IMG/VR virus record: IMGVR_UViG_3300010354_000014 | Location: 1 to 36,647 of that record | DNA: 36,647 nucleotides | Source of the DNA: a virus | Direction: 5' to 3' (one strand) | Position numbers and translations under genes: made by a program | Part shown: in pieces, positions 3,409 through 36,647 of the stretch | Numbering within the stretch: the first letter of the stretch is position 1 | Layout of the letters: the number at the start of each line of letters is the position of its first letter | The notes under the pieces: model-generated | Databases searched by the model: none | Told to the model about the DNA's origin: nothing | The model's input: only the letters and a program-made list of their open reading frames with translations

Positions 3409-4728
3409 ATGGGAAAAAATAGAATTGTAAAAACGCTAACGGGTTCAGGGACGTTTACGGTTCCGGCGGGTGTGACTCAGATTTCCGTTTATTCTCGTTT
3501 TGGCGATGAAAAATTATCGCCGGTCAATGTAGGATTTCTAAGTACGGTTGCCCATACTCAAACGGGACAAGCGTATAGCTGGGGAGATAACAGAGACGGC
3601 CAACTTGGAGACGGCACTATTATTGATAAATCAAGTCCGGTCGCCGTGGTTGGCGGATATTCATTCGTGAGTGTCACCGGAGGAGGTAGCGCAGGGACGG
3701 GATTTACTATTGGCTTAACCGCATCCGGTCAAGCGTATGGTTGGGGATTGAACACATCTGGGCGACTTGGGGACGGCACGACGGTAACAAAATCAAGTCC
3801 GGTCGCCGTGGTTGGCGGGTATTCGTTTAATCAGATTTCTTCTGGGGTATCACACACGTTAGCATTAACCGATTCTGGTCAAGCATATGGTTGGGGAGCA
3901 AACACAAACGGTGTTATCGGAGACGGAACAATTGTAAGTCGCTCAAGTCCGGTCCCCGTGGTTGGCGGGTATTCATTTATTCAGGTTTCGTGTAGCTCGT
4001 CGTCCTTTGGCTTAACCGCATCCGGTCAAGCGTATGCTTGGGGAAACAATGGCACTGGCCAGCTTGGGGACGACACCCTTGTTAGTAAATCAAGTCCGGT
4101 CGCCGTGGTTGGCGGGTATTCGTTTATTCAAATTTCTGCCGGGGGAAGTCATACGCTAGGATTGACGGCATCCGGTCAAGCGTATGCTTGGGGAGCAAAC
4201 ACGTCGGGCCAACTTGGGGACGACACCCTTGTTAGTAAATCAAGTCCGGTCGCCGTGGTCGGCGGGTATTCGTTTATTCAAGTTTCAGCCGGAGGCTCAA
4301 ATTCTTTTGGATTAACGGCATCCGGACAATTATATGGTTGGGGATTTAATAGCAGCGGTCAAATCGGTGATGGCACGGTTATAAGAAGATCAAGTCCGGT
4401 CGCCGTGGTTGGCGGGTATTCGTTTATTCAAGTTTCAGCCGGAAGCGGCGGAACTAATAGCGCAATCTCTGTTGAAGGACGCATTTATTCGTGGGGCCAA
4501 AACGTAAACGGTATAATAGGGGACGGAACGATTGTACCGAAATCAAGTCCGGTTGCCGTGGTTGGCAATTTGTTTTTTTCGGTTATTCCGCCGTTAACGC
4601 TGCGATGTTCAATCACTGTTAGACCGGGCGATTCAATCGGATATAAAACAGGGTTGGCCAGAACGTATTTTGGGCAAGCGGTTTTCAATACGGATATTTC
4701 GGAATTTGTTGTCGAATATTTTGCTTGA
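3409..4728 (+). CDS. RCC1-repeat beta-propeller tail protein (439 aa)
   Basis: The start is ATG 3409, after the short leader GAGGAAATC. The N-terminus (GSGTFTVPAGVTQISV) is a motif common at the start of glycine-rich phage tail proteins. Residues about 52-395 are seven tandem repeats of about 50 aa with the pattern GQAYxWGxNxxGQLGDGT, then SSPVAVVGGYSFIQVSAG and LTAS, which matches RCC1 repeats. Seven repeats equal one seven-bladed RCC1 propeller. The C-terminus (residues about 400-439) returns to tail-type beta sequence. The propeller therefore appears inserted in a tail-protein frame and may be a receptor-binding head. The gene uses more TTA, AAT and ATA codons than its neighbours, suggesting separate acquisition. 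Confidence 0.85.
   Translation: MGKNRIVKTLTGSGTFTVPAGVTQISVYSRFGDEKLSPVNVGFLSTVAHTQTGQAYSWGDNRDGQLGDGTIIDKSSPVAVVGGYSFVSVTGGGSAGTGFTIGLTASGQAYGWGLNTSGRLGDGTTVTKSSPVAVVGGYSFNQISSGVSHTLALTDSGQAYGWGANTNGVIGDGTIVSRSSPVPVVGGYSFIQVSCSSSSFGLTASGQAYAWGNNGTGQLGDDTLVSKSSPVAVVGGYSFIQISAGGSHTLGLTASGQAYAWGANTSGQLGDDTLVSKSSPVAVVGGYSFIQVSAGGSNSFGLTASGQLYGWGFNSSGQIGDGTVIRRSSPVAVVGGYSFIQVSAGSGGTNSAISVEGRIYSWGQNVNGIIGDGTIVPKSSPVAVVGNLFFSVIPPLTLRCSITVRPGDSIGYKTGLARTYFGQAVFNTDISEFVVEYFA
3565..4569 (+). repeat. Seven tandem RCC1-coding repeats, about 150 bp each
   Basis: A near-identical core, TCAAGTCCGGTCGCCGTGG, recurs at 3631, 3793, 3943 (one base changed), 4090, 4240, 4390 and 4543 (one base changed). Spacings are 162, 150, 147, 150, 150 and 153 bp, all multiples of three. 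Units 4 and 5 are close to identical over most of their length, including the GGGGACGACACCCTTGTTAG segment. The DNA-level identity implies recent duplication or gene conversion between blades. Confidence 0.9.
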
Positions 4729-11155: not shown

Positions 11156-11158
11156 ATG
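11130..11158 (+). promoter_or_regulatory. ERF gene ribosome site enclosed in a small hairpin
   Basis: TCGGGT (11130-11135) can pair with ACCCGA (11149-11154), placing the GAAAGGA ribosome site (11140-11146) in the loop and the ATG at 11156 two bases beyond the stem. The arrangement could tune initiation of the first early gene; it is short and may be chance. Confidence 0.3.
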
Positions 11159-11908
11159 AAAACAAGCGATAATACCGATAAAATCTCCGAGGCCCTCGCC
11201 GCCGCGCAGGGCATGATGCGAAATCCTGAAAAAAACAAAACGGCGAAAATCCCAATGAAAGCCGGTGGGACCTATAGTTACGATTACGCCGACCTCCCGG
11301 CGACAATCGACACGATCCGACCCGCGCTTGCGAAAAATGGGTTGGCCCACGTCGCGGGCGTCAAGCGCGAGGACCGTGGAACCGTTCTCGCCGTTCGACT
11401 GCTCCACACGTCGGGGCAATGGCTTGAGAGTGAAATGGATTTACCGATGGCCGCCGACCCTAAAGCGGCCGCGTCAAACCTGACTTATTTTCGCCGGTAT
11501 CTTTTGACCGCGCTCGTCGGCATCGCCGCCGACGATGACCTCGACTCCGAACCCGAGGCGGGTGCGACGTATGAGCAACGCCGGAAACAGGCCCCGCTTC
11601 AAACGAGCGGCGCGTTAGATTCACGGCCAAGGGGTCCGGCCGAGAAAACGAAAAAACCCGTCAAAACGGAACCTCGCGCAAAGCCGACGAACCCGCTCGA
11701 CTATGTCCCGCAAATTGGGAAATGGATCACGACACGCCTGGGCGATCACTCGGCAACGGAGTTGGAGGAATACGCAACCGCGCTCACGCGGTCTCTGCAT
11801 GAGTCGGGAAAGCGAATCGAGGACCTCCCAACGCTCCAACGTGAGTTGTACGAGAATCTCATGGCGGCAACCCTCGCCAAAATTTCCGATGAGGCCGACG
11901 TCCCATGA
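11156..11908 (+). CDS. erf: ERF-family single-strand annealing recombinase
   Basis: A 250-aa protein with ERF superfamily signatures: residues about 40-52 YSYDYADLPATID, then LAKNGLAHV, and near 100-121 ADPKAAASNLTYFRRYLLTA, the conserved region ending at LVGIAADDDLD. The C-terminal half is a basic, low-complexity linker followed by a charged helix. ERF proteins anneal complementary single strands in phage recombination and work with SSB, which is encoded two genes downstream. It heads the early operon and overlaps the next gene by ATGA. Confidence 0.9.
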   Translation: MKTSDNTDKISEALAAAQGMMRNPEKNKTAKIPMKAGGTYSYDYADLPATIDTIRPALAKNGLAHVAGVKREDRGTVLAVRLLHTSGQWLESEMDLPMAADPKAAASNLTYFRRYLLTALVGIAADDDLDSEPEAGATYEQRRKQAPLQTSGALDSRPRGPAEKTKKPVKTEPRAKPTNPLDYVPQIGKWITTRLGDHSATELEEYATALTRSLHESGKRIEDLPTLQRELYENLMAATLAKISDEADVP

Positions 11909-12111
11909 GGCCGCGCCTAAAAAGCGGCGTCCCGGTGCCGCCGAAAAAACAATCGCCGGAATGGGAAATCCTCGAACGCATGGCGGTCAATGATTCGTTC
12001 GAGGTTCCGATCGGAAAGAAACGCGCCGTGTATAAACACGCGGAACGCGCAGGAATAAAAATCACCGTCCGAAAACAGGACGGAAAAATCAGAGTTTGGA
12101 GAATTGCATGA
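11905..12111 (+). CDS. Small basic early protein (68 aa)
   Basis: ATG 11905 overlaps the erf stop and the gene's own TGA overlaps the ssb start. The pattern MAVNDSFEVPIGKK ... AGIKITVRKQDGKIRVWRI matches a small conserved phage protein family found near replication genes (S-F-xVP, TxRK, RVWRI). The function is unknown; the basic, beta-strand-like tail suggests nucleic-acid binding. Confidence 0.7.
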   Translation: MRPRLKSGVPVPPKKQSPEWEILERMAVNDSFEVPIGKKRAVYKHAERAGIKITVRKQDGKIRVWRIA

Positions 12112-12506
12112 CGTTCGCGAAAATCACGATTCAAGGCCGTGCCGGTGAGGATTCGGTCCTGCGATGGACGACCAACGGAAAAGCAGTCGCTTCGGTTTCA
12201 ATTGCCGTGAACAAAGGCCCGAAGGAAGCGCGGAGAACAATTTGGTTCACCGCGAAAGCATTCGGCGAGGCGGCGGAAGCGTTGAGAGTCGAGCGCGGTC
12301 AACTCGTCCGCATTGACGGAAACCTCGACGTGTCCTCGTGGATCGACAAGCGGACGGGCGAAAAGCGCGAGCGTTTTGAGGTCCTGATCGACACGCTTTC
12401 AACGGACGTTCAGGATTCGTCCGCTCAGAAGCCCTCGGCATCACCACGCGCCCAGGCGGAAAGTCCCGCGCAATCGGGCGATTGGGACGCCGACCTCCCA
12501 TTCTGA
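12108..12506 (+). CDS. ssb: Single-stranded DNA-binding protein
   Basis: A 132-aa OB-fold SSB. Residues 1-105 show the family pattern: a first strand FAKITIQGRAG, then VLRWTTNGKAVASVSIAVNK, TIWFTAKAFGEAAEAL and the GQLVRIDGNLDVSSWIDK segment. A Pro/Ala/Ser linker leads to the acidic tip DWDADLPF, which in bacterial SSBs recruits partner proteins. The ATG at 12108 is chosen from the ATGA overlap; a TTG 12 bases upstream is less likely. It should coat single strands for ERF and the replication initiator. Confidence 0.93.
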   Translation: MTFAKITIQGRAGEDSVLRWTTNGKAVASVSIAVNKGPKEARRTIWFTAKAFGEAAEALRVERGQLVRIDGNLDVSSWIDKRTGEKRERFEVLIDTLSTDVQDSSAQKPSASPRAQAESPAQSGDWDADLPF

Positions 12507-12654: not shown

Positions 12655-13560
12655 GTGGCACGAATTAACATTGACGATTCAATTTTTACCGACACGCGGT
12701 TTCTGAAGCTGGTCGTACACCTGGGCAGTATGCCCGCCGCGCTCGGGCACCTATGCCACGCATGGATCGTCGCGCAGCGTTACTATCTCACCGAAAGCCG
12801 CATGATCCCGAGGACTGCATGGGACGCGCAGGAATTACACGGCGCATTGATCGACGTGGGCCTTGCGGAAGTTGTCGGCGATCACGTCCGCATGAAGGGG
12901 AGCGACGCTCAATTTGCGTGGCTACTTCAACGCTCTAACGCGGGGCGACTCGGGGGGGCGAAACCAAAAGCAAGCGACCGAAAGCGACCGTTAACGACCG
13001 AAAGCGGCCGCTTAACGGACGGAAGCGGGAGCAAGCCTCTTTCTCTTTCTCTTTCTCATAAACCTAAGATTAAAAACTTAAAGTCTATCCTAACGGAGCA
13101 CGAAAAACCGAAAACCGGGGATGCGGGACTGCGTCCCGAAACCGCCGTCGCGGTTTCACCCGTTGAGGCTCAGGAAAAATTTTTAATCCCTGAACAGCCG
13201 AAAGCCGCTGGTCAGGGGAAAGCCGAGTCGGCGCAATGGCTCATCGCGGCGTGGATCAAAGCGTTTCAACTCCGATTTCCCGGCCAGCGTCCGGCCGAAC
13301 TCTCGGACCCGAAGGTGATCGGGCAAATGCGCTTGTTCGCCCGCACGATCGAGAATCGGGACCGCGTCGCCGAACTCATGCAAATTTTTTTTCAAATTGA
13401 GGACGATTGGTTTAAAAAGCGCGGGTGGGCGTTTGAGACGTTCCGCGCGAATCTCAATCGCATCGGCCAGGCGAGGGATGCGGGCGAGGACGTTTCGGGG
13501 TCGGGTGTGAACTGGGCGAAACTGCGAGCCGAGTTCGAGAGTCGAGGGGAAATCGAATGA
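12655..13560 (+). CDS. Replication initiator / replisome organiser (301 aa)
   Basis: The start GTG 12655 has CGGAGG four bases upstream. The N-terminal domain (residues about 1-100) looks like the winged-helix domain of phage replication proteins: INIDDSIFTDTRFLKLV, LITESRMIP-like, LIDVGLAEVVGDHV, ending in the typical QRSNAGRLGGAKPK. Residues about 103-180 are a low-complexity linker whose DNA carries iteron-like repeats. The C-terminal domain (about 195-285, AQWLIAAWIKAFQLRFPGQR and WAFETFRANLNRIGQA) is helical, as in proteins that load helicase. The layout parallels lambda O, with the origin inside the gene between two domains. Specific partners are not known. Confidence 0.75.
   Translation: MARINIDDSIFTDTRFLKLVVHLGSMPAALGHLCHAWIVAQRYYLTESRMIPRTAWDAQELHGALIDVGLAEVVGDHVRMKGSDAQFAWLLQRSNAGRLGGAKPKASDRKRPLTTESGRLTDGSGSKPLSLSLSHKPKIKNLKSILTEHEKPKTGDAGLRPETAVAVSPVEAQEKFLIPEQPKAAGQGKAESAQWLIAAWIKAFQLRFPGQRPAELSDPKVIGQMRLFARTIENRDRVAELMQIFFQIEDDWFKKRGWAFETFRANLNRIGQARDAGEDVSGSGVNWAKLRAEFESRGEIE
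12971..13026 (+). repeat. Iteron-like 10-bp tandem repeats, candidate origin
   Basis: Five and a half units with helical spacing: CAAGCGACCG, AAAGCGACCG, TTAACGACCG, AAAGCGGCCG, then CTTAACGGAC and GGAAGCGG. Phased differently they alternate ACCGAAAGCG and ACCGTTAACG. The period of 10 is not a multiple of three, so the encoded residues (SDRKRPLTTESGRLTDGS) do not repeat; the repetition exists at DNA level only. This suits binding sites for the initiator. Confidence 0.7.
13036..13093 (+). other. Polypyrimidine mirror tract and AT-rich stretch, candidate unwinding element
   Basis: Bases 13036-13057 are 22 uninterrupted pyrimidines; 13037-13057 (CTCTTTC repeated, 21 nt) is a perfect mirror repeat able in principle to form a triplex. 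It is followed by 13058-13090, about three-quarters A/T. Iterons, then a melting-prone tract, is the arrangement of lambda-type origins. The tract encodes SLSLSLSH and the following basic residues of the linker. Confidence 0.5.
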
Positions 13561-34946: not shown

Positions 34947-36647
34947 ATGGCAACCGAAACCCAACTCTTAAAACTCGACCTCGACACGAAAGACTTCATC
35001 GAAAAAACAAGCGAGGCGGACGCGAAACTCGGGCAGATTGGCGACCCGTCAAAACTCACGGGTTTGATTGACGGCCTCGCAAGCGTGACGAAAGTTTTGG
35101 GAGTGATTGGGACGATCGGCCTTGCAGCAAAGGCCGCGCTCGACCTTTCGCTTGAGGCGGAAAACGTCCGCCTTGTGAATCAGCAATTTGAGATTCTGAC
35201 GCGAAATGCGGGCCTAGCTGGTTCAACGCTCAAGGATTCATTGACTCAGATTGCGGACGGCCTCGTTGACGATACCGACTTGCTAAAGGCGGCAAACGCG
35301 GCGGTCGTTCAGCTTGGCGGAAATGCCGAGCGATTGCCTGAGATTTTTGGTCTCGCCAAAAGTGTGACGACCGCTTTCGGCGGCGACATTCTCGACAATT
35401 TTTCGCGATTGAACGAAGCGGTTGCGACCGGAAACCTTCGCGGCTTGCGGCAATATGGATTGATTGTCGATCAAGACCTTGCGCTGCGAAACTATGCCCG
35501 CACCGTTGGCACGACGGTTGACGCGCTTTCTGAACAGGAAAGACGTTCGGCAATTTTGAACGCGATTTTGGAGCGCGGAAAAACTGCGCTTGCGGGCGTG
35601 TCGGATGAAGTCGCCGTCAATACGAACGCCTGGACGCGGCTCAACGTCGCGCTGGGACAATTGAAAGAATCCGCTGCGATTGCGTTTGATCGCGTATTCG
35701 GCGGCGTCATTAAAGCGGAAATCACTGGGTTCACGGCGATTGCGAACGACCTCACGCGATTTTTGACCGCGAAATTTGGAAGCGGACCCGAGGCCGCCCG
35801 AGCGCAGTTTGAGCGATTGACGGAACAGATTAACGCCTCGGGCGCGAACGTATTCGACCTTCAAACGAAAATCGAAACGCTTTCGGCGCGATATGGGGAA
35901 GGCGCAAAGTATCTTTCCGACTATACCGAAGCGGTCCGGTTGCTCGCGTTTGAAGAAGAAAGGCTCAAAGGACTTCGAGCGCAAGCGGCGGAACTGAAGG
36001 GCGTAGCGGGCGGCGGACCGGAAGAGACCGCGCAAGCAAGCGCAGACCGAACGATTGCCGTTGATGAAGAGGCCGCCGCACGTCGGCTTGAGGTTGCCTC
36101 AAAGTTCGAGGCCGACCTGTACAATCTGCAATTGAACCGCGTCAATCAAGAGGTGCAAGTCGCGACCTCGATTGAAGAGGTGGACCGATTGCAGAATGAG
36201 CGGCGCGTCCTCATGAGCCAGCTAGTTCTTGAAAAAGAACAGCAAGCGCAAGCGGCGGTCCTTGAGGGTAAAATGACGGCCGATCAAGCCGAAGCGCAGT
36301 CGGTCGAACTGCGAAAAGCGTTAGTCGCGGACCTTCGCTCGGTTGAAATGAGGGCCGAGGATGAACGGTTACGGGCGCTTCAGAATTTCGCCGCAGTGTC
36401 GGCGAATACGGCATCGGGTTTTGTTGCGGGATTCAAAGCGGCGTCGGCCAATGCTTCCCGTGACGTCGGAAACTTTTCAAAACTCGGGCAAACCGCGTTC
36501 AATTCATTTTCAGCAAACGCGGCAAACGCCTTCATGGAACTTGGGAAAGGAACGAAATCCGCGACGGAAGTCATGAAGTCGTTTTTCCTGAATGCGTTGG
36601 CGGACATTGCTCAATCTCAAGGGTCAATCATGCTCGCAAACATTTAC
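34947..36647 (+). CDS. Tail tape measure protein, N-terminal part
   Basis: ATG 34947 follows the chaperone stop directly. The frame is open to the window end and continues at base 1, giving about 677 aa in total. Residues about 30-60 contain the hydrophobic stretch VLGVIGTIGLAAKAALDLSL; the centre has PhageMin-tail-type sequence (DDTDLLKAANAAVVQLGG, RLPEIFGLAKSVTTAFGG) and a long coiled coil (residues about 290-490, FEADLYNLQLNRVNQEVQVA etc.). Tape measures set tail length at about 1.5 angstrom per residue, which suggests a tail near 100 nm (estimate). Bases 36525-36647 repeat bases 1-123. Confidence 0.85.
   Translation, partial: MATETQLLKLDLDTKDFIEKTSEADAKLGQIGDPSKLTGLIDGLASVTKVLGVIGTIGLAAKAALDLSLEAENVRLVNQQFEILTRNAGLAGSTLKDSLTQIADGLVDDTDLLKAANAAVVQLGGNAERLPEIFGLAKSVTTAFGGDILDNFSRLNEAVATGNLRGLRQYGLIVDQDLALRNYARTVGTTVDALSEQERRSAILNAILERGKTALAGVSDEVAVNTNAWTRLNVALGQLKESAAIAFDRVFGGVIKAEITGFTAIANDLTRFLTAKFGSGPEAARAQFERLTEQINASGANVFDLQTKIETLSARYGEGAKYLSDYTEAVRLLAFEEERLKGLRAQAAELKGVAGGGPEETAQASADRTIAVDEEAAARRLEVASKFEADLYNLQLNRVNQEVQVATSIEEVDRLQNERRVLMSQLVLEKEQQAQAAVLEGKMTADQAEAQSVELRKALVADLRSVEMRAEDERLRALQNFAAVSANTASGFVAGFKAASANASRDVGNFSKLGQTAFNSFSANAANAFMELGKGTKSATEVMKSFFLNALADIAQSQGSIMLANIY
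36525..36647. repeat. Direct terminal repeat, right copy
   Basis: Identical to bases 1-123; shows that the contig closes into a circle inside the tape-measure gene. Confidence 0.9.

Follow-up and report, generated by a model that had tools for sequence, protein, structure and literature searches.

The 36,647-nucleotide viral stretch analysed here (IMG/VR record IMGVR_UViG_3300010354_000014; hereafter the window) carries, at 12972-13093 and inside what is probably the phage's own initiator gene, a DNA segment that we read from its sequence as a lambda-style replication origin, with a probability of roughly 85%. Three observations underlie this reading, namely (i) an ordered DNA architecture of helically phased iterons, an abutting tract of CTCYTN hexamers, and A+T-rich DNA; (ii) the conservation of this architecture at the level of DNA; and (iii) its recurrent association with initiator genes. 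Phage origins are rarely predictable from sequence, and the regular anatomy of phased iterons, an AAGCC-like junction, and CTCYTN hexamers within an initiator linker could make it possible to locate origins in phages that have not been cultured.

Table 1. Features of the candidate origin and its surroundings (window positions).
Feature	Position	Strand	Basis
ERF single-strand annealing protein (context)	11156..11908	+	
Single-stranded DNA-binding protein, SSB (context)	12096..12506	+	
Putative replication initiator gene of the phage (301 aa, GTG start)	12655..13560	+	Homologues match replication-initiator PHROGs
Winged-helix-like domain at the N-terminus (MARINIEDS family), presumed to bind the iterons	12655..12969	+	AlphaFold, viral fold matches, alignment
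Seven phased iterons of ~10 bp; the last, a half-unit (AAGCC), adjoins the tract	12972..13036	+	Read from sequence; TRF; shuffles; homologues
CTCYTN hexamer tract, (CTCTTT)3CTC, proposed single-strand capture or unwinding element	13037..13057	+	Shuffles, homologues
A+T-rich stretch, proposed to complete the DNA unwinding element	13058..13093	+	33 nt at 13058-13090 are 76% A+T
Helical domain at the C-terminus (aa 190-280), presumed to recruit a helicase or loader	13222..13494	+	AlphaFold; C-domain PHROGs of other homologues

The gene that carries these elements is immediately preceded by a GGAGG ribosome-binding site. AlphaFold modelled the N-domain (aa 1-105) and the C-domain of its product with pLDDT mostly >90, and predicted the linker between them, inside which the iterons, the tract, and the A+T stretch all lie, to be disordered. 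Among viral models, a primosomal protein was one of the nearest folds to the N-domain, with replisome organizers matching more weakly and lower in the list, and a Foldseek search of the PDB gave weak matches only (E >0.2), winged-helix proteins among them. The window protein had no significant match to family profiles (PHROG_9474, 13246, and others; best E=0.17); an O-family N-domain was not recognised in it (no Pfam match), and it was not placed in that family. Its homologues reach E values of 1e-6 to 1e-21 against replication-initiator PHROGs, and the gene order of annealing protein, SSB, and initiator matches that of TP901-1 and, broadly, that of 80alpha. Since the protein lacks a significant family match of its own, we infer from its homologues and gene context that it is a phage replication initiator. 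The first-pass annotation, which had placed the three DNA elements between the two domains of an initiator, is supported.

Read directly, the iterons start at 12972, 12982, 12992, 13002, 13013, 13023, and 13033, and their units run, in order, AAGCGACCGA, AAGCGACCGT, TAACGACCGA, AAGCGGCCGCT, TAACGGACGG, AAGCGGGAGC, and then AAGC/C. TRF reported periods of 10 and 20 for this block, and the iteron cores fall in different reading frames. The best 30-nt segment of the block has 22/30 matches at lag 10, which is more than expected (p=0.004) when codons are exchanged among synonymous positions, leaving the protein unchanged, and the maximum is taken over lags 8-14. Directly 3' of the AAGCC half-unit comes the 21-nt tract CTCTTTCTCTTTCTCTTTCTC, which has T at every third base and which, against the same kind of shuffle, reached p=0.002, the lowest value that 500 shuffles allow. 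Its non-coding strand holds eight consecutive NAN triplets adjoining the iterons. A search of the whole genome found no second copy of the tract, and iteron-like words elsewhere in it stand singly and do not clearly exceed chance (11 genome-wide, the two here included, against 6.4 expected). Direct reading, with TRF for the repeats, confirmed the 10-bp tandem repeats, the 21-nt polypyrimidine mirror repeat, and the 33-nt stretch of ~76% A/T described in the first-pass annotation. Its further argument, that selection acts on the DNA and not on the encoded residues, was borne out by iterons and a tract that both exceed synonymous shuffles, as well as by iteron cores lying in different frames.

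Protein searches for close relatives among viral contigs, named phages, and the PDB gave none; the sole match, in genome contigs (L005), was spurious, and 299 genomes from the phylum of G001 yielded no match. A degenerate DNA pattern for the conserved N-domain motif recovered three distant homologues, whose alignment led to 25 loci, and after further scans the set comprised 39 distinct proteins, that of the window included, all on viral metagenome contigs; L051, L061, and L067 were rejected as start-motif matches by chance. All statistics refer to 25 homologues (window included) found via protein motifs alone, whereas the other 14 proteins, recovered by scanning for DNA motifs and biased towards the tract, were kept outside them. 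The homologous proteins are ~20-37% identical overall, and their PHROG matches comprise replication initiation, O-like, DnaD-like helicase loader, primosomal, and replisome organizer families, with C-domain matches to DnaD-like PHROGs in some homologues only. This variety of C-domain families on one type of N-domain suggests that C-domains are exchanged as modules behind it.

In most of this family, helically phased iterons lead into an abutting CTCYTN tract and then into A+T-rich DNA. Mean identity across the 25 homologues was 0.41 at lag 10, 0.35 at lag 11, and 0.36 at lag 21, compared with ~0.25 at lags 7, 8, 12, and 13, and a period of 10-11 was significant at p<=0.05 against synonymous shuffles in 15/25 (Fisher 7e-18). 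The other 10/25 showed no individually significant 10-11-bp signal, indicating that iteron spacing or degeneracy varies. Iteron sequences change by lineage (CAAGCAAACT, GAAGCGGGAC, GAACGGGCGT, and CCATCCAGTTAA, among others), with helical spacing mostly kept; the L110 linker has perfect 12-bp repeats of CCATCCAGTTAA instead of 10-11-bp iterons. The tract lay above synonymous shuffles at p<=0.01 in 21/25 homologues, and the 40 bases 3' of it are higher in A+T than the gene in 20/25. Within the hexamer, positions 1, 2, 3, and 5 (C, T, C, and T) are nearly fixed at the start of the tract, position 4 is C or T, and position 6 is free. A different hexamer occurs in the homologue L021, as GTTACC repeats after a short CTCTTCCTC. 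What is preserved seems to be the layout of the DNA itself and not its sequence. When viral DNA was searched with AANCC plus three hexamers, using no protein information, 24 of the 56 stretches recovered belonged to this initiator family; L082, from the same search, was rejected as a member because its score was at chance level.

The tract also extends beyond this family. A second DNA-only scan used a looser, hexamer-only pattern; its matches lay mostly in proline/threonine-rich, non-initiator-like proteins, and only the initiator matches are informative. Among the matches listed were initiators of the unrelated families PHROG 5968, 4880, 3171, 9474, and 3926, mostly with 10-12-bp iterons directly 5' of the tract, and among 47 of the matches listed that were selected by length only, replication families were the commonest, with up to eight members each. 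Ten proteins chosen by eye and scanned individually (L137, L138, L151, L158, L163, L164, L165, L181, L182, and L200) are encoded by initiator-like genes of other families in which iterons, mostly of 10-12 bp, are followed by a hexamer tract. In several of these ten, the tract lies on the opposite strand; the coding strand then reads GAGTAAGAGTAA, the purine version, and encodes Ser-Lys, Arg-Val, or Gly-Val repeats. What is new here is that one and the same hexamer tract stands behind the iterons in several initiator families that are not related to each other, in either strand orientation. Searches of the open-access literature returned no paper describing this tract, nor one on a DRE or trio in phages, so an earlier description may exist. 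Judged from these sequences, the tract looks general among phage initiators, with a strand polarity that is not fixed. It is absent from the four known origin-bearing initiator genes that we inspected, those of lambda, P22, 80alpha, and TP901-1, all of which contain repeats and A+T-rich DNA.

These opposite-strand tracts bear on the possibility that the iterons form an autoregulatory operator and that the tract controls transcription or translation, for instance as an mRNA site at which Rho loads. Self-binding repeats are expected for a repressor too, pyrimidine-rich mRNA could load Rho, and the tract of this initiator family does lie on the coding strand; in other initiator families, however, it is purine-rich on the mRNA strand, which makes an RNA-level role unlikely. 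Moreover, an operator 300 nt 3' of the start codon would be oddly positioned, a promoter scan and an Rfam search returned no promoter-like site and no match, respectively, and the C-domains of the homologues belong to helicase-loader and initiator families. We regard the operator or Rho explanation as very unlikely.

A shade less probable still is that the tract gathers start sites for primase, in the form of YTN triplets on the template, and is not a melting or capture element. Although many homologue tracts alternate CTC with TTA or CTA, and some primases start at CTA/TTA-type triplets, CTC and TTT are the only triplets of the window tract before ATA, the third base is free, and the strand differs between families.

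Another explanation would treat the linker as a tolerant, low-complexity protein stretch in which functionless repeats arose by DNA slippage. The predicted disorder of the linker and the wide variation in hexamer copy number among homologues would fit this, but the same unit, order, and register recur across proteins as divergent as those described above, and the tract abuts the last iteron. Comparison at the linker, as proposed in the first-pass annotation, showed that relatives keep the architecture: between the window and L008, 26/27 iteron bases are identical, compared with 52% of the N-domain DNA, and where residues are identical, their codons agree in 9/10 cases in the linker, but in only 12/45 cases in the N-domain. 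In the close homologues L024 and L025, the 104 nt holding the iterons are without any difference, and each of the five changes in the 54-nt tract next to them, as read, keeps a pyrimidine or hits the free sixth base. Further, the tract occurs in two codon frames, encoding either Leu-Thr, Leu-Ser, or Pro-Thr or else Ser-Tyr or Ser-Ser repeats, while the third frame, in which T would occupy the second codon position and hydrophobic residues would be encoded, is avoided. The use of two frames together with the avoidance of the hydrophobic one indicates that selection acts on the DNA, and a tract that moves between codon frames allows selection on DNA and on protein to be cleanly separated. Slippage alone is thus highly improbable. 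Least tenable is the opening of the origin by an intramolecular triplex, an addition made in the first-pass annotation: the window tract (13037-13057) is indeed an exact mirror repeat, but the sixth hexamer base is A in 12/25 homologues, and (CTCTTA)n and (CTCTTC)n are not mirror repeats, leaving the symmetry as a non-conserved by-product of the CTCYTN hexamer.

If 12972-13093 is a lambda-style origin, the N-terminal winged-helix domain would bind the iterons along one side of the DNA, where their helical phasing suggests that initiators are stacked. The stacked complex would then melt the hexamer tract next to the iterons together with the A+T-rich DNA that follows, and a single strand of the melted tract might be captured by the initiator or a loader, in the manner of the DnaA-trio and the DnaD recognition element in oriC; the coding strand would offer T at every third base, and the other strand NAN triplets. 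The variable C-domain, judging by its family matches, would subsequently recruit the host helicase machinery. By analogy with oriC, we give roughly even odds to the tract being a single-strand capture or unwinding element beside a melting A+T stretch. Somewhat short of even odds, and offered as a tentative extension, is that a CTCYTN tract behind phased iterons could serve phage origins in general for unwinding or strand capture, shared by several unrelated initiator families on either strand and forming the phage counterpart of the DnaA-trio/DRE. Because some unrelated initiators carry the tract on the opposite strand, a mechanism with a single strand polarity, or a simple DnaD-like reading, is insufficient. 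The architecture makes it testable whether phage initiators open DNA as DnaA and DnaD do in oriC.

In B. subtilis, the DRE 5'-CTACTATTACTTCTACTA-3' has T at every third base and adjoins initiator boxes (PMC10201434), and its complement is the DnaA-trio array, with the trio pattern.A. (PMC8287927). The window resembles the basal unwinding system (BUS) of bacterial oriC in that initiator boxes are followed by a triplet-phased element with NAN triplets on the other strand. Its eight NAN triplets next to the iterons exceed the minimum of three used to recognise a BUS, and its tract has at least two TnnT motifs on a strand, as used for the DnaD recognition element. It differs from B. subtilis oriC in that its triplets are GAG/AAA-like and not GAT, in its hexamer periodicity, and in the involvement of a phage protein and not DnaA; direct reading of 12960-13100 revealed no DnaA boxes in the iteron block.

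Lambda O likewise has origin-like elements within its coding sequence, between the N- and C-domains and directly after the former, with the first iteron at nt 349 of O and at nt 318 here. In ori-lambda, the iterons are followed by strand-asymmetric A+T-rich DNA (PMC5043065), and A+T-rich DNA follows the iterons here too. The lambda iterons, however, are 18-bp inverted repeats spaced 20-24 bp, whereas those of the window are direct units of ~10 bp, and lambda O has purines on the coding strand after the iterons, without CTCYTN hexamers. The earlier suggestion of an independent example of the lambda O design holds for the lambda-like design and the unrelated sequence, but the window is not an isolated case, being a member of a widespread architecture.

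Further likenesses are found in 80alpha gp20 and TP901-1 rep, where repeats and A+T-rich DNA lie inside an initiator gene near annealing-protein and SSB genes; 80alpha has an annotated rep_origin within gp20. Their N-domains differ from that of the window by sequence, and neither has a CTCYTN tract. In the annotated 80alpha rep_origin (L241 3240-3366), repeats are followed by CTACTAATAATAATAGTACTAATAATG, which has T at every third base over ~11 triplets; this run is in frame, and codon usage may therefore explain it. The replication initiation protein of the Moorella phage MCACPph1 (L124 1290-1412) combines linker repeats with a CTCYTN tract, CTTCTCCTTCTCCTTCTCTTTCTCCTACTCC, but its N-domain differs from that of the window by sequence and its repeats lie 20-30 bp apart.

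With respect to the genome as a whole, a 123-bp direct terminal repeat (1-123 identical to 36525-36647) indicates that the virus record is complete and that the genome, of 36,524 bp, is circular or circularly permuted. The first-pass annotation had expected a GC-skew minimum near 13,000 and had named a minimum elsewhere as evidence against this origin. Taken literally, the result goes against it, as the skew across the whole 36,524-bp genome keeps one sign nearly throughout, without a minimum around 13,000; the skew gives no clear signal of an origin anywhere in the genome, however, as would be expected with almost all genes on a single strand, and GC skew is uninformative for locating the origin here. 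The 127-aa product of the gene 3' of the initiator, tested as a possible counterpart of the lambda helicase-loader gene P, had no match. Elsewhere in the window, an ORF at 3409-4728 contains about five 150-bp tandem repeats (3710-4443), whose unit reads like a beta-propeller (RCC1-like) motif, and positions 21537-22736 encode a 399-aa protein in which a ParB-like domain is fused to a DNA methyltransferase domain.
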